Position numbers and translations under genes: made by a program. The notes below the pieces were generated by a model. That model worked only from the letters and a program-made list of their open reading frames with translations. It was not told the DNA's origin and searched no databases. A DNA stretch of 64,000 bases from Alkalispirochaeta americana (lineage in GTDB: Bacteria; Spirochaetota; Spirochaetia; DSM-27196; Alkalispirochaetaceae). The stretch spans positions 186,001-250,000 of the forward strand of contig NZ_FTMS01000002.1 in NCBI RefSeq assembly GCF_900156105.1, written 5' to 3'. This document shows, in pieces, positions 54,479-63,958 of this stretch (within the stretch, counting starts at the first letter, position 1; every line of letters begins with the position of its first letter).

Positions 54479-55480
54479 TTACCCATCGATGGCATCGGGA
54501 TCGTGCATCTTCCGATCCTCCAGGTACCGAAGGACCTGAATATTGCCAAGGCGTATCAGTTCGGCATCACGACGAGCTTCTTCGCGGACCTGCAGAATGC
54601 CCCAGACAGCCTCGTCATCGATATCCCGTTCAAGCTGCAACACAGCCCGATCGTAGGTGAGCGAAATGTCCTTGATGTAGGTGATGAAATCACCCCCCAC
54701 CTGCGATGCGTCCCGATACACCCGAATGCCAATGAGCTTACGCATGGGGGAAAGGTTGGGATAGAGCGGCATGGTACGAACCTCGCGGTTGCGAACCTCG
54801 GTGATATAACTGGGGTTTCTCCACTCCAGTGTTCGCCACCCGTCGAACTGCAGATTACCCATCAGAATCTCATGCTCCCGGTTGTTCTCGTCCTGGAGGA
54901 CGATGGCGATCGCATGAGGAAAGTTCAGGCCGTGAACATTCATGGAAACGGACCGCAAGACGCCCACGTTTTTGACCACGCCAAAGTTATCAAACTTTCG
55001 GCCGCGACCCTGCTCCTCTTGGGGAACTGCGAGCTGCCCTGTGTCATCGACAACCTCAAGATCTGCAAAAGCCGGAATCTCGAAAGGAGGCCGGATCAGC
55101 GCCCAGGAATTAAAGGGTTCCGTGGGGAACCGCACCCGCACACCCATGACCGTCTCACCCTCGTAACGGCTTGCGCCGGCTCGAACGGGAGCGGAACGGA
55201 CCATGCTGTCTCCTATGGTCGTCACGTTTCGGGACGATGAAGCAAGGTCGACTTCCCAAGAGTCGATAGCAAGAGAGATTCGCATCTCCGCTTTCTCCTC
55301 CTCCGTGAAGCTGGTCCCTGCGGCGATGCTGTAGTCCACAAGAGTCCGCTCGTTGTGACGCGGATTGTCGGCAGGGTAATCCGCTGTGAGCGTAGCAAAA
55401 TCAACGAGAACTGCCTCGTCAGCGACGACGACACTCAACACCAGCAGAAAAACTAAAACGAATAGGACGGAACGTCTCAT
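54479..55480 (-). CDS. flaA: Flagellar filament outer-layer protein FlaA
   Basis: The 333-residue product has a signal peptide (LFVLVFLLVLSVVVADE, cleavage after VVA). The rest matches the spirochaete FlaA sheath protein, including WEVDLASSSRNVTTIGDS, VKNVGVLRSVSMNVHGLN and ISLTYDRAVLQLERDID. FlaA coats the FlaB core of periplasmic flagella. It is exported by Sec rather than by the flagellar secretion system. Its own near-consensus promoter and strong terminator suggest high expression. amidase-GerMN genes lie just upstream, an order I also recall in Treponema pallidum. Confidence 0.93.
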   Translation of the reverse strand: MRRSVLFVLVFLLVLSVVVADEAVLVDFATLTADYPADNPRHNERTLVDYSIAAGTSFTEEEKAEMRISLAIDSWEVDLASSSRNVTTIGDSMVRSAPVRAGASRYEGETVMGVRVRFPTEPFNSWALIRPPFEIPAFADLEVVDDTGQLAVPQEEQGRGRKFDNFGVVKNVGVLRSVSMNVHGLNFPHAIAIVLQDENNREHEILMGNLQFDGWRTLEWRNPSYITEVRNREVRTMPLYPNLSPMRKLIGIRVYRDASQVGGDFITYIKDISLTYDRAVLQLERDIDDEAVWGILQVREEARRDAELIRLGNIQVLRYLEDRKMHDPDAIDG

Positions 55481-55530: not shown

Positions 55531-55558
55531 ATTATAACGCGCCATTCTGCTTTGTCAA
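55531..55558 (-). promoter_or_regulatory. Near-consensus sigma-70 promoter of flaA
   Basis: TTGACA (55558-55553) and TATAAT (55536-55531) are both perfect and are separated by 16 bases. The -10 box overlaps the stop codon of the GerMN gene. A 44-base leader with an AAAGGAGA site leads to the flaA ATG. Confidence 0.9.
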
Positions 55559-56056
55559 CGGCGAGAAAGAAAACCGGGGAACATTCGGCAGATCACCTCC
55601 AACAGTAATTATGATATTTTTCACAAACCTGAAATTATGCAACACATTTTTCTCAATAAGTTCAAATAAACGATTTATATCAACTTCCTCTTCCCGGCCG
55701 ATCAAATTTTCCGGCGAGAGGTCCAAAAAGAGCCTGCCCTCCTCTCCCAGGGCGATAATCCGGAAACCAACGCCACGAGGGACCAGCGCAGCAGACCCCA
55801 TGCGGACGGGCCCCAGGAGCATCTCTGCAAGATAGAGCTCCAGAAACTCCCGGCGCGTCTCTCTGCGGGGCAGATACCGCCACTCCGCATTCGCGTGGGC
55901 TCCGGCGGTATCGGGGAACCAGAACACAACGCGACGCCTTGGCCCTGGCGCAAGGGCAAGAACCAGGAGTGTTCCTACAAGCATTACAAGAAGCACCCCT
56001 CCCAGAGTATACCCAAGGGCTTTCCTGTTTTGCCACCATGCACCAATCCTGTTCAT
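55532..56056 (-). CDS. Membrane-anchored GerMN-domain protein
   Basis: The start is ATG 56056, with AGGGTG upstream; a TTG further out would overlap the amidase gene. The 174-residue product has one membrane helix (ALGYTLGGVLLVMLVGTLLV) and a periplasmic domain resembling GerMN. The segments FLELYLAEMLLGP, RLFLDLSPENLI and INRLFELIEKNVLHNF fit that domain. GerMN domains occur in spore germination and in envelope proteins such as LpqB, and may bind peptidoglycan. It directly follows the amidase gene. Confidence 0.7.
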   Translation of the reverse strand: MNRIGAWWQNRKALGYTLGGVLLVMLVGTLLVLALAPGPRRRVVFWFPDTAGAHANAEWRYLPRRETRREFLELYLAEMLLGPVRMGSAALVPRGVGFRIIALGEEGRLFLDLSPENLIGREEEVDINRLFELIEKNVLHNFRFVKNIIITVGGDLPNVPRFSFSPLTKQNGAL

Positions 56057-56066
56057 TATCCGCACC

Positions 56067-57155
56067 CTAATCACGGCCCACCTCTTCAAAGTTCTCGATA
56101 AAGTTCAAGACGCCAGTATAGATTCCTCGTGTAATCCGTCGCAAGTAGGCCGGATCTTCCAGGCGCTTGAAATCTTCACGGTTGGTAACAAAGCCGATCT
56201 CCACCAGGACCGAGGGCATTCGGGCGTTGCGGACCACGTACCAGCTCTCTTCGCGAATTCCCCGGTTGGGAGACTCTTCTCCCACAGCAGCATCGAGGCC
56301 GGAGAGGATGTTTCGTGCCAGGAGTTCGCTCTCCAGGGTAATTTCTTCCTCTCTCATGGTGTTCAGAATGGAGAGAACCTCCGGGTCCTCCACGCCTACC
56401 CGCTCGGGATTCACCAGATCGCGGCGCCGGAACTCGGGGGGAAGAACCCAGACCTCGAATCCCTTGGCACGACTGTTCAGGGATGCATTGGCGTGAATCG
56501 ATACAAAAAGAACCGATTCGTGGGGAGCCAAAGGGATCTCGTTGGCTTGATCGGTTCGGTCCTCCAGGGTAATGTAGGTATCATCATCCCGGGAGAGAAC
56601 AATTTTTTTCTCGGGAAACCGTTGTTTCAGCAAATCTCTCAATTGCAGAGACACATCGAGAACGAGATCCTTTTCTCGCAACTCCCTCAGTTCCGTTCCA
56701 AACTGGTGACGCCCGATAGCCCCGGGATCACGCCCCCCGTGACCTGGATCGATAAAAATGGCCCCTACACTGCGAAGTGTGTCGGGGGGCGGGAAAACCC
56801 GCAAGGCCAGGTCAAGAAAGCCTCCAGAGAAAACAAGCGCACCATCTCTTCTGAAAGGGGGAGTCACGGCATGAAGACGAGAATAATTTTCCACAGCGTA
56901 GTTGACGCCTACTCCGAAAGAAAGGGCCCTTCCTCCACGAACAATCGAGCCTCTCCCTCGATAGGGGTCCCATTCAAGATGCGCCGAGACCCGTTCCAGA
57001 AGATCTTCCAGAGAGACTTCACGGGAAAAATCGCGATGTGTCCGGGAGTCGGCGGCTGCCTCGTTCAGGGACCGGGTTCCGGGGGAAAAGAGATCTCCTC
57101 CCCCCAGAAGAAAGGCTCCCAGAAGGACCATCATGACCCCGTGCCGAAACCTCAC
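56067..57155 (-). CDS. N-acetylmuramoyl-L-alanine amidase (Amidase_3 family)
   Basis: GTG at 57155 is chosen as the start. It overlaps the ATP-grasp stop (GTGA), has GGGGAG upstream, and gives a proper signal peptide (MRFRHGVMMVLLGAFLLGGG). The mature part has an AMIN-like beta region (about 45-125), then the zinc amidase fold with FIDPGHGGRDPGAIG, LRELREKD, VSIHANASLNS and SVLVEIGFVTN providing His, Glu, His and Glu. It cleaves the amide between muramic acid and the stem peptide. In spirochaetes it may help place periplasmic flagella or separate cells. Confidence 0.92.
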   Translation of the reverse strand: MRFRHGVMMVLLGAFLLGGGDLFSPGTRSLNEAAADSRTHRDFSREVSLEDLLERVSAHLEWDPYRGRGSIVRGGRALSFGVGVNYAVENYSRLHAVTPPFRRDGALVFSGGFLDLALRVFPPPDTLRSVGAIFIDPGHGGRDPGAIGRHQFGTELRELREKDLVLDVSLQLRDLLKQRFPEKKIVLSRDDDTYITLEDRTDQANEIPLAPHESVLFVSIHANASLNSRAKGFEVWVLPPEFRRRDLVNPERVGVEDPEVLSILNTMREEEITLESELLARNILSGLDAAVGEESPNRGIREESWYVVRNARMPSVLVEIGFVTNREDFKRLEDPAYLRRITRGIYTGVLNFIENFEEVGRD

Positions 57156-58840
57156 GAGGAAAACTCCCGGGGAATCCGGCCGCTTCGCAAACAATCCAGG
57201 AGATACACGACCCCCTGGCGACCGGCTGCAGAGAAAGCACTCCAGAAGAGACGTCCCGCACCCCCTGTTTTGGCAAGGCCTTCGCCATTCCGGGACTCGC
57301 CCCTGTGGCCCTCAAATGTTACCAGCCCCCTCTTGAGGCAGTCAGCAAGAACCATGCAGGCCTCCCGGACCGGATAACAACGCTCCCACCGCAGGTTTTC
57401 CGGAAGAGGGATCACTGGCAGAGGCTCACCCGCCGCCACGGCCCGGCAGAGGGCACGGCCATCACCGCTGTACCAGGAAAGGGGAATATCCTGGAGCGAG
57501 ACCTCTTCGGCCTGAAGATTCTTGAGGCGATACCGCTGGAAAGCCCCTGCTCCGAAGGGTGTAAAAAGAAAAGCCTCAGTTTCTTCGTCACCGGGAGCAA
57601 GATGGAGATCGATGTGGTCGAGCGCTGTCAGGGCCCGTTCTTCCGCTTCCCGGGCATCGCAACCCCGGGCGATCGCGTTGGCCACCTTTTCAACGTTGTT
57701 CGAAGGAGGAGCGACCCGTTCCCCCGGGGAAGAGCAGAGAAAGAGTTCCTCCACGCCGGGGGGAAGATTTGCAGGGTCAGGAGGGGTCAGGGAAACTACC
57801 TGTCCAGGGCAGGAAATAAGGGCGCGCTCGGCCACCACCTGTGATATCGAGGGGGTAAAGAGCTTTTCGCCGGGAGACTCTCCCAAGGCGACCCTCAACC
57901 CGATCTCCGAGAGAGGCACTCCCGTAGCCAGGGGATACGTCCAGCCTGACATATAGCCCCCCGAGAGACGTGCCGCCACCTCCCCCACCACGGCCCGGGG
58001 TGCATCACCCCGGGTATCAAGGAAGATGTCTCCTTTGGCAGCGCCACGGGTGATTCCCAAGGCTGCGATTGCTTCGCGAAAGGTCTCGCTCAGAACGTGC
58101 TCTTCCCGGGGAGTCATTTTGGCTGGGATGGTATGGCCGAGTTCCACAAAAAAGGGAGGGAAGAAAATATGACGCTCGGCGATTCCCGTGATATGCACTG
58201 CCCCATCCACCACAATCGCATCCAGACTGTATTCCTGGCCCTGGATAAACTCTTCCACAATCACCGTTCCCCGCCGGGAAAGGCCACGAGCCCTGGATAC
58301 TGCCTGATCGAGCCCGGAGGGGCTCTCTACCCGGATAACCCCCCGGGCGCCCATATTATCCACGGGCTTTACCACCACGGGAAAGTCCAGGCTTTCACCC
58401 CGGGAAGGACACTCCCCGGAACTCCCGATGGTAAAAAACCGGGGTACCGGAATACCCGCATCGGCCAGAACCCGCCTCATTCTTCCCTTGTCCGTGGCCT
58501 GTTCACTCACCTGGGGAGAGATTCCCGGCAAACCCATGGCTTCCGCCACGGCTGCAACGGAGGTGGAAAAATCGGTTCCGGCGGTAAAAACCCCCTGAAG
58601 ACCCGAAATCGTTTTGGCGCAGGCCACAAGATTCTCCTGATCCCTCAGGTCGATGTGATGGAACCGGTCAGCCCGGGACGCGCCGGGACATGAGGAATTT
58701 CCGTCTGCCACATGAACGATACACCCCAGCCGCCGGGCGGCGGCTATGGCCGGCAGTTGCATCGTCCCCCCTCCAAGAATGAAGACTGCTCGCTGGCCTG
58801 AGCCGTCTCCGGGGCTGGTTGTCTTGTTTGCACTCTTCAT
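57152..58840 (-). CDS. ATP-grasp carboxylate-amine ligase of unknown specificity
   Basis: The 562-residue protein has a preATP-grasp domain (VFILGGGTMQLPAIAAARRLG, quoted in part, then ADGNSSCPGASRADRFHHID) and an ATP-grasp core. The core lies at about residues 115-305: FPVVVKPVDNMGARGVIRV, VIVEEFIQGQEYSLDAIV, and a metal-binding segment GEVAARLSGGYMSG. About 250 further residues are unlike known ligases, except for a HIDLHLAPGDEE segment. Relatives join a carboxylic acid to an amine through an acyl phosphate. It lies between the PseG/methyltransferase fusion (42 bases) and the amidase (4-base overlap). Confidence 0.8.
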   Translation of the reverse strand: MKSANKTTSPGDGSGQRAVFILGGGTMQLPAIAAARRLGCIVHVADGNSSCPGASRADRFHHIDLRDQENLVACAKTISGLQGVFTAGTDFSTSVAAVAEAMGLPGISPQVSEQATDKGRMRRVLADAGIPVPRFFTIGSSGECPSRGESLDFPVVVKPVDNMGARGVIRVESPSGLDQAVSRARGLSRRGTVIVEEFIQGQEYSLDAIVVDGAVHITGIAERHIFFPPFFVELGHTIPAKMTPREEHVLSETFREAIAALGITRGAAKGDIFLDTRGDAPRAVVGEVAARLSGGYMSGWTYPLATGVPLSEIGLRVALGESPGEKLFTPSISQVVAERALISCPGQVVSLTPPDPANLPPGVEELFLCSSPGERVAPPSNNVEKVANAIARGCDAREAEERALTALDHIDLHLAPGDEETEAFLFTPFGAGAFQRYRLKNLQAEEVSLQDIPLSWYSGDGRALCRAVAAGEPLPVIPLPENLRWERCYPVREACMVLADCLKRGLVTFEGHRGESRNGEGLAKTGGAGRLFWSAFSAAGRQGVVYLLDCLRSGRIPREFSS

Positions 58841-58882
58841 ATATCCAACACCACTCCCCAGTCAATTTGCATGTCACAGCGC

Positions 58883-60655
58883 TCACAGACGCTCTGCAAT
58901 AACCTCAAAGGTGTCCCCCAGGCGGGCAATCCGGGACACGCGTGAAAGGAACGGATACCACCGTCGGGACAGACGGGGGGAAAATCGCTCCGGGTGATGC
59001 CCGGTAACCCGAAGAGCCCGAAGGGAAAAGCCATATTTCTTCAGGACACGGCGGGCCGAGGAAATGTCCCAGACAGAATAATGGTCCCGGGGACTGTTGC
59101 TCAAGAAGGCGCGTCGATCCCGTCGCGCCGAGATACCCCGACCGTGGGGTGTCGAAAAGGCGAGAATACCGCCGGGGCGCAAAAGGGTGTGTACCTTCTG
59201 CAGGAACAGATCCAGATCCTGGATATGCTCAATAACGTACCAGAGGGTGACGATGTCAAACGGGCCCTGGGGTGCTACTTCTTCCAGGTGCATCAGATCA
59301 CCCTGGTGAGCCTCCAGACCCAGCTCATCCCTGATATGGCGAACCGCCTCGCGATTAATCTCGAAACCCAAAACACGACATCCTGCCCGGGAAGCCGCTA
59401 CCAGAAAGGGGCCGAAGGCACAGCCTATATCGAGGAGTTTCGGAGCTTTCCAGGAAAATCGGCAACGACCCAGGATATCAGCGATTCGCCGATCGCCCAT
59501 CCGGGCGATCGCGTCGAAGTCTTCCAGATAGGTGCGACCGTACTGCGCCTGGTATTCAGAGAAAAAATAATCCCGGCTGTAATCAATCTGCTGGGGAACA
59601 AAATTTTGAAGAAAAACCAGGCCGTCCGGAAGGTTCCGAAAGAAGGTTCGATCGGAAAAACGCTGGAGGGCCGGCTGGCGTGGCCCCTCCCGGGAAGATT
59701 CCGAGGGACTGGTGACCCGTTCGGGCAAAACAAGGGCATTCAGGAATTCTGGAAGGGAACGTTTTTCCCGGGGACGAACCGCCCGGGAGGATTGGAGTAT
59801 CCGGGGATACTCCCGCTTGATCAGTCGGGCGAGGTCTCCCAAAGAGCGCGCTGTGGTAATGCCAGCTCTCCGGGACAGACTTCGATGATACCTGGAGGGG
59901 TTTACGGTGACCACGGGAACCCTGGCCCAGAGGGCCTCCCAGGCGAGCAGCCCGAAATGGGTAATAACCAGATCGTAATCTGCCAGGGTCTCAGCCAGAT
60001 TTTGGCAAAGGGGAATCTCCCGAACTCCTGAAAAGGAGCCCTCTCCCGACCGCATCTGCTGCGGGATCTCCCTCATCGGTGCGGGCTCTCCGAGAATGGC
60101 CTCGACCACGACGTCTTGCCTGCCACTCTGTCGACAAGCAATCAGAGCCCGAGCTGCCACCCTTCGAACCTGATCATCCCGGGGTTCGCCGCCAAAAACT
60201 ACCAGGATACGGGAAATATCCCGGGGCCAGTCCTGACGGAGGCGCTCAGGAAGGGGCAGAAACCCCGGATCGGTAATATTGGCGGGGAGCGCTCCCGGTG
60301 GAGCAGGCAAGGAATCAACTAAAAAAGAAGCATAGCGCCGTAGCGGAGGGGGCGCATCAAGGCCAATCACCACCGCCCCTGGGGGAAGCGTCTTCAGGTC
60401 CTCTCCGGAAAAAGACCTGCAGTCGACCAGAACCAGATCGTAGGTTCCCCGAGGGTGTTCTACCCATCGGGGAGACCCGGCGGGAGCCAGAATTTCACAC
60501 ACCTCCTGACGGGTATACCAGCCATCTCCTTTGTTCTGCGGGAGCAACCAGAAAATATCTCCCTCAAGATGTGCCGAAAGGGCAGCGCACCGCCGCAGGT
60601 GGCCCGTTCCGTGGCCCCGCCGGTGTTCCACAACCACAAGAATCTGTCTAGGCAC
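58883..60655 (-). CDS. PseG/SpsG-like domain fused to a class I methyltransferase
   Basis: The start is GTG 60655, overlapping the spsF stop by 8 bases and beginning the Rossmann strand RQILVVVEHRRGHGTGHLRR. This gives 590 residues. Residues 1-330 resemble PseG/SpsG, with the catalytic-loop GTGHLRRC, VVIGLDAPPP, RILVVFGGEPRDDQ and DYDLVITHFGLLAWEAL. Residues about 385-590 are a SAM methyltransferase of the ubiquinone/menaquinone type: LLDIGCAFGPFLVAASRAG, FDIVTLWYVIEHIQDL and LLRPGGILAFSTPHG. PseG removes UDP from an amino sugar in pseudaminic acid synthesis. The fusion suggests a nucleotide-sugar intermediate and an O- or N-methyl step in one pathway. Confidence 0.8.
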   Translation of the reverse strand: MPRQILVVVEHRRGHGTGHLRRCAALSAHLEGDIFWLLPQNKGDGWYTRQEVCEILAPAGSPRWVEHPRGTYDLVLVDCRSFSGEDLKTLPPGAVVIGLDAPPPLRRYASFLVDSLPAPPGALPANITDPGFLPLPERLRQDWPRDISRILVVFGGEPRDDQVRRVAARALIACRQSGRQDVVVEAILGEPAPMREIPQQMRSGEGSFSGVREIPLCQNLAETLADYDLVITHFGLLAWEALWARVPVVTVNPSRYHRSLSRRAGITTARSLGDLARLIKREYPRILQSSRAVRPREKRSLPEFLNALVLPERVTSPSESSREGPRQPALQRFSDRTFFRNLPDGLVFLQNFVPQQIDYSRDYFFSEYQAQYGRTYLEDFDAIARMGDRRIADILGRCRFSWKAPKLLDIGCAFGPFLVAASRAGCRVLGFEINREAVRHIRDELGLEAHQGDLMHLEEVAPQGPFDIVTLWYVIEHIQDLDLFLQKVHTLLRPGGILAFSTPHGRGISARRDRRAFLSNSPRDHYSVWDISSARRVLKKYGFSLRALRVTGHHPERFSPRLSRRWYPFLSRVSRIARLGDTFEVIAERL

Positions 60656-61430
60656 TGTACCACACCCGGCTATAACCAAAGGCAAGAAGATCTTCCAGGG
60701 CAATGGGAGACCCTCGATACAGCTCGTCGTAAATGCTCTGAAGAGCCTGATAATCCTCGGGGGTATCCAGGGTGACACGCCAGGAGGGTGCCTGCCACTG
60801 CCGGGGGACTTCCTCAATGGAAAGACGGTAGCGCTGGGGATTTTCGTACAGCCCGGGAGTTACGTGTTCGTGGTCGTAGGCAGAGGATGAAAAACGGCGC
60901 AGATCGTCCAGCGCTTCGGAGCGTATCACCTCAACCCCTGTGCCCAGGGGACTCCCCCGCAGGGCAGCGTAGTCCGGGAGGTCCTGGAAAAAGAGGTCCA
61001 GGGCCCCCAGAGCGACCTTCCGGGAGACCAGGGGGTTGTCTCCCGTAGCACGGAGGATTACCTCTGCTCCGGTATGGTCTGCGGCCTGGCAAAATCTGAG
61101 GAGCACGTCCCGGGCATCGCCCGCAAAGACCCGAAAGCCCCCCTTCCGGGCCCAGGGTTCCAGGAGCGGAGCGCTCTCTTCATCGGTAACCAGCCAGAAC
61201 TGTTCCACCGGAAGGGACCGCAGCGAATCCATGGCGTGGAGCACCACCGGTTTTCCCGCCAGCGGAAGGAGCGCTTTTTCCGGCAGTCGTGACGAGGCCA
61301 GGCGGACTTGCAGGAATACAGCTGTCTTTTTTCGGATCACCCTCTCGTCGCGAGAGATGCCTGGATCAGGGGAAGCACCTCCATCAGGGGAAATACCTCC
61401 ATCAGGAACTGTGATGGTCTCCTTACTCAT
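60648..61430 (-). CDS. spsF: SpsF-type cytidylyltransferase
   Basis: The start is taken as ATG 61430 (MSKETITVPDGG), overlapping the upstream gene by 8 bases. The 260-residue product has a repetitive N-terminus of about 30 residues (18-bp unit) and then the nucleotidyltransferase fold: FLQVRLASSRLPEKALLPL with the Arg and Lys of the nucleotide loop, WLVTDEES, FAGDARDVLLRF, RATGDNPLVS and VTLDTPEDYQAL. This is close to SpsF and related to NeuA/PseF enzymes, which activate acidic sugars with CTP. Its product may feed the neighbouring glycosyltransferase. Confidence 0.87.
   Translation of the reverse strand: MSKETITVPDGGISPDGGASPDPGISRDERVIRKKTAVFLQVRLASSRLPEKALLPLAGKPVVLHAMDSLRSLPVEQFWLVTDEESAPLLEPWARKGGFRVFAGDARDVLLRFCQAADHTGAEVILRATGDNPLVSRKVALGALDLFFQDLPDYAALRGSPLGTGVEVIRSEALDDLRRFSSSAYDHEHVTPGLYENPQRYRLSIEEVPRQWQAPSWRVTLDTPEDYQALQSIYDELYRGSPIALEDLLAFGYSRVWYSA
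61361..61410. repeat. 18-bp tandem repeat in the spsF N-terminus
   Basis: About 2.7 units with period 18: 61361-61378, 61379-61396 and a partial third. The second and third begin CTCCATCAGG; the first differs in two positions there. The array encodes the SPDGG-type repeats ahead of the enzyme fold. Confidence 0.85.
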
Positions 61431-62373
61431 GGTCGACGCTCCACTCACGAATTACCGTCCTGGCATCGCGGACAAACCGCTCCCGGTTCTCCTCGACCCA
61501 CCGGGAAGCTTCGGAGAAAACCCGAAGCGTTTCCAGCAGACCGCAGCCGCTGCGCAGGGAGAAGGGAATCGCCTGGAGAGGCGAGACGCAGGGCCCTTTC
61601 TCCCGCAACCGAACGGCCAGATTGCGGGCATAGAAGCGGTCGTAGCCACCTCCTGCGGTCTGGTCTTCCGGCTCGGGCATGCTGCGATAGCTCATCCGGA
61701 AGGTAGGGTCGATACGAATCTGCCCTCCCCAGAGAGCGATGCGGAACCCCAGATCCAGACACTGCCAGAAGGGCCGCTCGATTTCTTCATCGAATCCTCC
61801 CGCCTTCTCAAACCGGGGCCGGTGGTAGAGCCCTACATAATCGAAGGGGAAGAGCGTAGCTAGAGGAGTTGTCCGGAGGGGCAGTGTCATAACCCGCAAA
61901 GCCCTCCGATGAAGAGCGGGGACCTGGACCACGGGAAGCTGCTCGCCTCTCTCCCCTCTCAAGGATGGGGCAAGGCAGAGCGATTTTCCCGCCAAAAGGG
62001 AATCCCGGGCCCGCAGAAGATTTCCAGGCAGTTCCATGGTGGACCACATGACCATAACCGTCTCGGCAACAATCAGGCCCAGGGCCAGGTTAATTTGCGC
62101 GCCGGGGTTCAGGGGCGTATCGAGAAGAAGAAAACGGACAGCCGGAAACTCAATATTCAGGGATTCTACGGTAAAGGCGTTCTCCCGCAGCTCCACCGAG
62201 ATAATTTCCGAGAATCCCTGTTCGACGATGGCAGCAATGTAATCACGCCGAACCAGGCGGGAACTTCTGTTGAGAAGGACCAGGGCCGGAAGAGAAGGGT
62301 CCGCCTTTTGACGCCGGTGGCCTACGACGGTATAAGGAATTTTCCGTTCACGCGTTAATGGTGTAGTACTCAT
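61423..62373 (-). CDS. Glycosyltransferase family 2-like protein
   Basis: The start is ATG 62373 (MSTTPLTRERKIPYTVVG), overlapping the spiro-SPASM stop by 26 bases and giving 316 residues. The fold resembles GT-A: ALVLLNRSSRLVRRDYIAAI, EFPAVRFLLLDTPLNPGAQIN, then a MWSTMELP segment where a DxD-like metal motif would be. GGFDEEIERPFWQCLDLGFRIALWGG (quoted here in description only as the GGFDE box) follows and ends with a sugar-acceptor helix. The usual acidic pair at DxD and the ED before LDLG are altered, so activity or donor use may differ. It lies between spiro-SPASM and spsF. Confidence 0.65.
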   Translation of the reverse strand: MSTTPLTRERKIPYTVVGHRRQKADPSLPALVLLNRSSRLVRRDYIAAIVEQGFSEIISVELRENAFTVESLNIEFPAVRFLLLDTPLNPGAQINLALGLIVAETVMVMWSTMELPGNLLRARDSLLAGKSLCLAPSLRGERGEQLPVVQVPALHRRALRVMTLPLRTTPLATLFPFDYVGLYHRPRFEKAGGFDEEIERPFWQCLDLGFRIALWGGQIRIDPTFRMSYRSMPEPEDQTAGGGYDRFYARNLAVRLREKGPCVSPLQAIPFSLRSGCGLLETLRVFSEASRWVEENRERFVRDARTVIREWSVDHE

Positions 62374-63958
62374 CACAGTTCCTGCATAGCTGGGGATAGT
62401 CCTGACTGAGGTGGCGGCGATAATCCTCCCGGCCGTGCTCCCAGACCGTTTCCAGGGAATCACCGGGACATATGCCCCGGAGGGATTTGGCCTGAAGATC
62501 CTGAAGGCAGCCAATAACCCTGCCGTCGGCAAGAATAACCAGATCCCGTTCCAGATGGCGGCAGGGAGTTCTCTTGAGTGGAGAGAGGTCAGCCACGCGA
62601 CGCTCCGGAAGCACTCCGGCGCAGGAGTTGTACTTCTGGATAAGGGGTCGCAGGCCGGTCTGATCCTGCCAATACTGGAAAAACTCCTGAAGCTCCCACT
62701 CGTTTTCGATCATGCGGGTAGCCTGGATATGAATTCGCCCGGCAAGGACGTGACGGATTTCCTCTATAAAGGCCCGGGCTTCCTCCCACCCCTGGCCACG
62801 CAGGGCCTGGTAGGTTTCCTCCCGAGCGGCATCCACCTCGACGATGACTGCCTGCAGTTGATCATGACTGGCCAGCAAGGCAGCCCGGTTCTCCTGACTC
62901 CAACCCACGCCGGATGTTTCCAGATAGACCGTGGCCCGGGGCACCAGAGCGAGGGAATCCAGAAGCTGCGGCAGGTGGGGCGAGAGCCCCGGTTCTCCGT
63001 AGTATCCCAGGGATATGACCGCTTCGGGGGAAAATCGGGAGAGGTCCTCCAGGATGGCCCCGAACGCTTCGGGGGTCATATCCCGGTGGTTTTCTTTCGA
63101 CTTCTCTCCGGAAGGGTCGCCTGCCGGGGGAGCCCCTGGCACAGGAGGGAGAAACAGGGGCTGCTGGTCCCTGCGGGTCGTCAACTGAATCTGTATATAC
63201 CTGGGGAGGGTTCTCCCCAAAAGCCGATCCTCTTTGAGACACTGCAAGAGGGGGTCTTCTCCGTCGGGGAAGCGTTCCCTGAAGGGATCGAAACTGCGGG
63301 AAGGATCCCAGGGTTTTCCCAGGCCTCGCTTTGCCAGGGCGCAGCAGAGCAGATAGTTTGCCCGGGAATCGACAGTAAGCGAGAGACGCAGCAGGGCGTA
63401 GTCGTCACAGGCTGCTTCGGTTTCTATGTCGAAGGCGTTGATATCGAGACTGATCGTATCGAAGAGAACGCTGCTACTCCAGACCAGGTCGCGTCCCTCG
63501 GCCAGGGCTGCCAGAACGGGCAAGGTATCCCGCCGGATAATTTGAGGCGCGTACCCCTGAGGAAAACCATCACCAAAGGTGTAATCACACCAGGAGCGGC
63601 TGTGTAAGGTTTGCAGATATCCCGTGAGGGCTGGCGAGAAAAACGGCGCATTACCATCAACCCATGTAAGGTGCTCCGTCTCGGGAGGCAGGGCTCGGGC
63701 AATCGCCCCAAGGGCTCCCGCCGCAGTGGTGTCTTCCAGGGGGAGGATGTGCCACGAGGCCGGAAAGACCGCCTTCGCCTGATCGGAGCATTCCCTGCCG
63801 GACTCTTCTCCGACGGGGAATACCACCGTTACAGGAACAGTTCCCCGGGATACCCCGAGAAGGCGCTCCACCACTTCCTCTCGGGGCGTGACTCCTCCCG
63901 GGAAGGCCTGGTCAAGGTAAGGCGAGAGCTGTGGAAAAGCCAGAATGAGATGATCCAT
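62348..63958 (-). CDS. Spiro-SPASM protein: degenerate nucleotidyltransferase and radical-SAM-like domains with a C-terminal SPASM motif
   Basis: In this 536-residue protein, residues 1-240 look like a decayed copy of the SpsF fold, with TWVDGNAPFFSPALTGYL and DYTFGDGFPQGYAPQIIRRD, but lack the nucleotide-loop RLP-K. Residues about 255-440 follow a radical SAM layout. Where CxxxCxxC is expected after YIQIQLTT, the sequence is RRDQQPLFLPP, with no cysteine. The C-terminus has SPASM spacing: PCRHLERDLVILADGRVIGC (C-x12-G-x4-C), then ICPGD and LCRNC. AGGGAGG lies only one base from the ATG at 63958, unusually close. It is the first visible gene of the glycan-like cluster. Confidence 0.82.
   Translation of the reverse strand: MDHLILAFPQLSPYLDQAFPGGVTPREEVVERLLGVSRGTVPVTVVFPVGEESGRECSDQAKAVFPASWHILPLEDTTAAGALGAIARALPPETEHLTWVDGNAPFFSPALTGYLQTLHSRSWCDYTFGDGFPQGYAPQIIRRDTLPVLAALAEGRDLVWSSSVLFDTISLDINAFDIETEAACDDYALLRLSLTVDSRANYLLCCALAKRGLGKPWDPSRSFDPFRERFPDGEDPLLQCLKEDRLLGRTLPRYIQIQLTTRRDQQPLFLPPVPGAPPAGDPSGEKSKENHRDMTPEAFGAILEDLSRFSPEAVISLGYYGEPGLSPHLPQLLDSLALVPRATVYLETSGVGWSQENRAALLASHDQLQAVIVEVDAAREETYQALRGQGWEEARAFIEEIRHVLAGRIHIQATRMIENEWELQEFFQYWQDQTGLRPLIQKYNSCAGVLPERRVADLSPLKRTPCRHLERDLVILADGRVIGCLQDLQAKSLRGICPGDSLETVWEHGREDYRRHLSQDYPQLCRNCDEYYTINA

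Follow-up and report, generated by a model that had tools for sequence, protein, structure and literature searches.

A five-gene cluster of Alkalispirochaeta americana very probably belongs to a pathway for a flagellar nonulosonic acid, of which it encodes late steps; the remaining pathway genes are located elsewhere in the 3.3-Mb genome. Judging from the enzyme sequences, the product would be of the pseudaminic or legionaminic type. The window analyzed here is a stretch of 64,000 nucleotides (contig C2:186001-250000), and protein families were assigned with the Pfam and NCBIfam profile libraries. The five open reading frames are all on the minus strand, and the conserved run of genes includes, close to its end, the gene for the sheath protein FlaA:

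62348-63958, minus strand: spiro-SPASM protein (TIGR04321)
61423-62373, minus strand: GT2-like protein resembling GT-A glycosyltransferases (AF2 model; no Pfam or NCBIfam match)
60648-61430 or 61448 (by start codon), minus strand: SpsF-type CMP-sugar (CMP-nonulosonate) synthetase (CTP_transf_3)
58883-60655 (longer frame to 60817), minus strand: fusion of a PseG/SpsG-like UDP-sugar hydrolase domain and a class I SAM methyltransferase (Methyltransf_23, TIGR03590)
57152-58840, minus strand: ATP-grasp carboxylate-amine ligase, L-amino-acid-ligase type (ATP-grasp_4, LAL_C2)
56067-57194, minus strand: N-acetylmuramoyl-L-alanine amidase, next in the conserved operon (Amidase_3, 2e-47)
55532-56089, minus strand: conserved protein of 185 aa, no family match (profile search)
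54479-55480, minus strand: FlaA, flagellar filament outer-layer (sheath) protein (PF04620, 2e-71)

The co-directional run claimed in the preliminary description was borne out, as was its spacing, in which the first four genes overlap by 8-26 bases and the fifth follows after a gap of 42 bases. The spiro-SPASM and GT2-like genes overlap by 26 bases, and the next two overlaps depend on the start codon, being 8 or 26 bases for GT2-like/SpsF and 8 or 29 bases for SpsF/PseG-methyltransferase; the 42-base gap precedes the ATP-grasp gene.

SpsF matched CTP_transf_3 (3.7e-24), and profile searches returned 6oew (1e-22) followed by CMP-Kdo synthetases; alignment showed that its CTP loop QxRxxSxRLPxK and the TGDNP motif are intact. 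The fusion protein matched Methyltransf_23 (5e-25) and had a weak PseG match under the cut-off (TIGR03590, E 2e-4), with a GxGH motif in the PseG domain that is invariant in 16 relatives. The GT2-like protein had no match in either profile library. Its AF2 model (pLDDT 81) adopts a GT-A fold, and the top Foldseek and VIA matches are polypeptide GalNAc-transferases, with Z about 20 over 263 residues and the next groups at 15-17. The metal-binding DxH/DxD motif is missing despite this GT27-group fold (WST in A. americana, WND in most relatives), so we did not class the protein as GT27. A longer TTG frame is available (to 62532), with residues 1-62 disordered in the model and the extension absent from most relatives.

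Gene order and partner genes elsewhere in the genome

Among the 80 best-matching loci from named records, in which close relatives are over-represented, 46 have at least 9.5 kb of downstream sequence. The order of the spiro-SPASM, GT2-like, SpsF and PseG-methyltransferase genes was kept in all 46, so the arrangement is not a product of chance. The ATP-grasp gene comes next in 44 of these loci, the amidase was found in 43, and FlaA is downstream in 44. Farther members of the phylum retain parts of the cluster only, and in one genome (G185) the cluster, flaA, cheA and NeuB all lie inside about 15 kb. SpsF is further fused to the PseG-methyltransferase protein in the Treponema denticola-like and T. 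vincentii genomes. A seeming fusion of PseG-methyltransferase with the ATP-grasp ligase at one locus (L218) was rejected as an out-of-frame extension in GC-rich DNA.

The preliminary description held that a NeuB-type synthase lies outside the window and that the pathway is incomplete there; this is correct for the window, and the genome carries the synthase on the same contig, at a distance of 134 kb. Homologues of NeuB/PseI and of PseB/C, named there as genes to seek across the genome, are both present. Two NeuB (PF03102) genes were found by profile search. The conserved one is a lone NeuB+SAF gene (470 aa) beside serS at C2:51.4-52.9 kb, and its orthologue is the sole NeuB of the T. denticola-like and T. 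pallidum-like genomes. In the PDB profile search its best match was Bacillus subtilis SpsE (1vli, 2e-60), the nearest solved synthase, which belongs to a legionaminic pathway (PMC7439481), followed by the pseudaminate synthase 8h2c. A CapD-type dehydratase (PF02719, 5e-100) and a DegT aminotransferase (PF01041, 1e-107) are adjacent at C17:72.6-75.3 kb, and this PseB/PseC-like pair adjoins the flagellins, FliD, FlgL and FlgK. The matches to PseG, PseB and PseC were all under the equivalog cut-offs. Four Maf-type (PF01973) matches were found in A. americana and none in G076, G188 and G149; the Maf proteins are likelier flagellin transferases than the GT2-like gene.

Other genes were observed around these partners. 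A NusG-like protein, a possible specialized antiterminator, is encoded directly upstream of the C17 dehydratase gene (L183:7975-8604), and likewise in several relatives. A xanthine-dehydrogenase-like trio (MoCoBD, Fer2_2, FAD) comes right after the PseB/PseC-like pair (C17:75248-78589; L183:11248-14589) and could possibly make the acid for N-acylation. It has the same placement in several other Spirochaetia, including the T. pallidum-like genome, and follows PseC in the T. denticola-like genome. A second locus on C30 (L006:1435-9152) holds NeuB, a NeuC-like epimerase, a NeuA-like cytidylyltransferase, a 2-hydroxyacid dehydrogenase and a sulfotransferase. It was rejected as a partner of the cluster, its NeuB not being the conserved one. 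With this second locus, A. americana may make more than one nonulosonate. A further NeuB match on C11 was discarded as a DAHP synthase/prephenate dehydratase.

Candidate enzymes of the acyl and methyl side chain

The genes present, their order, their co-occurrence, the fusions and the conserved flagellin sites were observed directly; we infer all substrates, the order of the steps and the roles of the ligase, methyltransferase, glycosyltransferase and spiro-SPASM protein. The CapD-type dehydratase and DegT aminotransferase (C17) would generate a UDP-4-amino-4,6-dideoxy-HexNAc, the ATP-grasp ligase would acylate the new 4-amine, using a hydroxy acid in place of acetate, and the PseG domain would strip the UDP. 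The SpsE/PseI-type NeuB (C2) would then condense the hexosamine with PEP, SpsF would yield the CMP-sugar, and the fused methyltransferase would O-methylate the sugar or its acyl group. Loading of the sugar onto conserved FlaB serines would fall to the Maf-type transferases, with the GT27-like gene perhaps contributing. The earlier claim was that the cluster makes, methylates, acylates and transfers a nonulosonate; NeuB, PseB/PseC and the co-occurrence pattern uphold its membership of such a pathway, and the methylation and acylation roles are predictions. We regard these two assignments, ATP-grasp acylation and methylation by the methyltransferase, as plausible and close to an even call.

The classical pathway requires N-acylation of the 4-amine. 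PseH (TIGR03585), also among the homologues that the preliminary description proposed to look for, was not found in the A. americana genome. No match exceeded the cut-off in 16 genomes, and at E <= 1e-3 there was none in A. americana, the T. pallidum-like genome, G006, G194 and G157; some relatives show sub-threshold matches. Because PseH was not found, we do not class the A. americana pathway as a classical (Campylobacter-type) CMP-pseudaminate pathway, and the best candidate for N-acylation is therefore the ATP-grasp ligase. The ligase matched ATP-grasp_4 (5e-15) and LAL_C2 (9e-12), and its active-site residues are conserved. Four distant spirochaetes, among them Brachyspira-like and Leptospira-like ones and one other genome, have the ligase fused to FMN_dh (L134:6920-9070, L136:6939-9284, L138:6839-9145, L139:7578-9806), a family that includes hydroxy-acid dehydrogenases. 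The fusion would fit a hydroxy-acid donor for the ligase.

Alternatively, the ligase may join an amino acid elsewhere, for example to the C1 carboxylate or another amine, with an undetected acetyltransferase N-acylating the 4-amine (future N7). This is possible, and we lean against it. The nearest solved relatives of the ligase include the L-amino acid ligases BL00235 and BacD, GNAT acetyltransferases are diverse, and some relatives have the sub-threshold PseH matches; however, the five genomes listed above had no PseH match even at the relaxed threshold, and the FMN_dh domain on the ligase in distant spirochaetes suits a hydroxy-acid substrate.

The sps pathway of B. subtilis resembles that of A. 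americana in its enzyme types (SpsM-type dehydratase, SpsC, SpsG, SpsE and SpsF), whereas its product coats spores and its SpsD is a putative acetyltransferase, of a kind that was not found in A. americana (PMC7439481). The methyltransferase, ATP-grasp, GT27-like and spiro-SPASM genes are additional in A. americana. The flagellar Pse/Leg systems of Campylobacter and Clostridium likewise combine a CMP-nonulosonate pathway with Maf for flagellin, and methylated derivatives occur, but they use the acetyltransferases PseH/LegH (PMC13317340).

Kurniyati and colleagues, in their 2017 work, are said to have described the T. denticola glycan as an acid of the pseudaminic type that bears a methoxy-trihydroxyhexanoyl group. 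In the literature searched, no genes had been assigned to its unusual acyl part, and naming the ligase and methyltransferase as likely side-chain enzymes makes this step testable. To our knowledge, neither a spiro-SPASM protein nor an ATP-grasp ligase is a component of the Campylobacter and Clostridium pathways. We tentatively propose, as a reading that falls somewhat short of probable, that non-Borrelia spirochaetes have in common an ancestral flagellar nonulosonate branch. The ATP-grasp ligase would replace PseH and attach a hydroxy acid that FMN_dh-like or xanthine-dehydrogenase-like partners make or tune, the PseG-fused methyltransferase would O-methylate it, and a repeatedly inactivated radical SAM protein would be kept as a non-catalytic partner.

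Distribution across the phylum and the flagellin sites

Of 198 genomes of the phylum that we surveyed, 188 had spiro-SPASM, 189 had NeuB and 197 had flagellin. Those without spiro-SPASM are seven Borrelia-like genomes, G149 and two that are <85% complete. The seven Borrelia-like genomes have flagellin, and NeuB was not found in them; spiro-SPASM, NeuB, ATP-grasp, PseC and Maf were all missing from the flagellated Borrelia-like genomes tested. In G149 flagellin is absent and the NeuB match is weak and probably DAHP-like. Within the order of G149, all seven genomes of genus g13 are without flagellin and true spiro-SPASM (the weak matches in two of them, at about 3e-6, are to other proteins), and all four of the sister genus g105 have both. 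In the 16 genomes searched, ATP-grasp, PseC-like and Maf genes follow the pattern of spiro-SPASM. These genome counts are non-independent, with g13 as one loss event and Borrelia as a second, giving about two independent losses. In general, the expected co-occurrence of the cluster with NeuB and flagella was seen for spiro-SPASM, Borrelia-like genomes apart. Of the contrary case named in the preliminary description, a cluster without nonulosonates, there was no clear instance: spiro-SPASM without NeuB at the search threshold occurred only in genomes <85% complete. Two fairly complete genomes (G025 and G045) combine strong spiro-SPASM with only weak NeuB matches, which possibly reflects incomplete assembly or a diverged pathway.

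Could the cluster instead make an envelope or peptidoglycan-linked sugar, with the linkage to flaA reflecting the structure of a cell-envelope operon? The cell-wall amidase is the next gene, no flagellin gene lies inside the cluster, and nonulosonates occur on surface structures of other bacteria, with Leptospira making several (PMC3438082). Nevertheless, we consider this very unlikely: spiro-SPASM is absent from the flagellin-less g13 and present in its flagellated sister g105, the Maf flagellin transferases share that pattern in the genomes tested, PseB/PseC adjoin flagellin and hook genes in A. americana, and genomes without the pathway have altered flagellin sites.

These sites are known from T. 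denticola, in which the FlaB proteins carry a 450.2-Da glycan that is essential for filament assembly and motility (PMC9481697), and the motifs VEVSQL and DRIAS were reported as glycosylated (PMC7431986). Passages in PMC9481697 and PMC7431986 trace this glycan to Kurniyati et al. 2017. Both A. americana flagellins examined carry VEVSQL, with DRVAS/NRIAS at the second site, and VEVSQL and RIAS-type sites are retained in the flagellins of most relatives. Six Borrelia-like flagellins have VEIEQL and RIAD/RISD in their place, so that both glycosylated serines are missing. Departures were also seen in one flagellin copy of G138, and G096 and G003 depart at the second site. In Leptospira, a glycan-like density bridges the core and sheath (PMC13144727).

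The suggested link to T. denticola holds, as the only NeuB of the T. denticola-like genome (G165) is orthologous to the conserved one of A. americana (46% identity) and the four-gene head of the cluster is present. The two share this NeuB and the SpsF-PseG-methyltransferase, GT2-like, spiro-SPASM, ATP-grasp and PseB/PseC-like genes, and their flagellin sites agree. They differ in that the T. denticola genes are spread over several loci and that SpsF, PseG and the methyltransferase form one 881-aa protein there. Taken with its distant partner genes and their distribution across the phylum, the cluster provides a concrete gene list, and even the small T. pallidum-like genome (G056) possesses the same set. 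Ten published primers for the T. denticola flaA operon match G165 exactly; they map to FlaA, the amidase and open reading frames without a match to cluster genes, and we rejected the idea that this operon contains the ATP-grasp gene. Its shared part with the A. americana cluster is the amidase-FlaA tail only.

The spiro-SPASM protein and its radical SAM motif

The first gene of the cluster encodes a protein with an N-terminal cytidylyltransferase-like domain (about residues 1-230) and a BtrN-like radical SAM/SPASM domain. It scored 391 bits against TIGR04321 (cut-off 250) and is 74% identical to its A. alkalica homologue over the matched part. PDB profile searches returned BtrN (8e-18) and 6oew (1.6e-6), and the same two were matched by the AF2 model (pLDDT 87; Z 22.3 and 20.7). 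Motif alignment showed that the A. americana protein lacks CxxxCxxC, having RDQQPLFL instead, and keeps the SPASM cysteines. The motif is kept in 62 of 102 family members and is missing also from the T. denticola-, T. pallidum-, T. vincentii- and Brachyspira-like proteins. On a FastTree tree of the 102 members its state changes about 10 times, at least six of them on well supported (starred) branches, a pattern that by itself does not separate gain from loss; because the fold and the SPASM cysteines stay, repeated loss is the natural reading.

BtrN acts on an aminocyclitol and DesII on a deoxyaminosugar, and the fold of the spiro-SPASM protein matches both. One might imagine that in A. americana it modifies the sugar by radical SAM catalysis, the more so as most family members keep the motif, but we give this little chance: the A. 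americana protein and several Treponema- and Brachyspira-like ones lack the motif, and the gene keeps its first place in the cluster despite the many changes of motif state. In lineages without the motif the protein is hardly a working radical SAM enzyme, and it is likelier to serve as a scaffold or to bind a substrate. A full-text literature search for spiro-SPASM found nothing, and the family provides a case in which radical SAM proteins of a single phylum have apparently lost their catalytic motif on several occasions.
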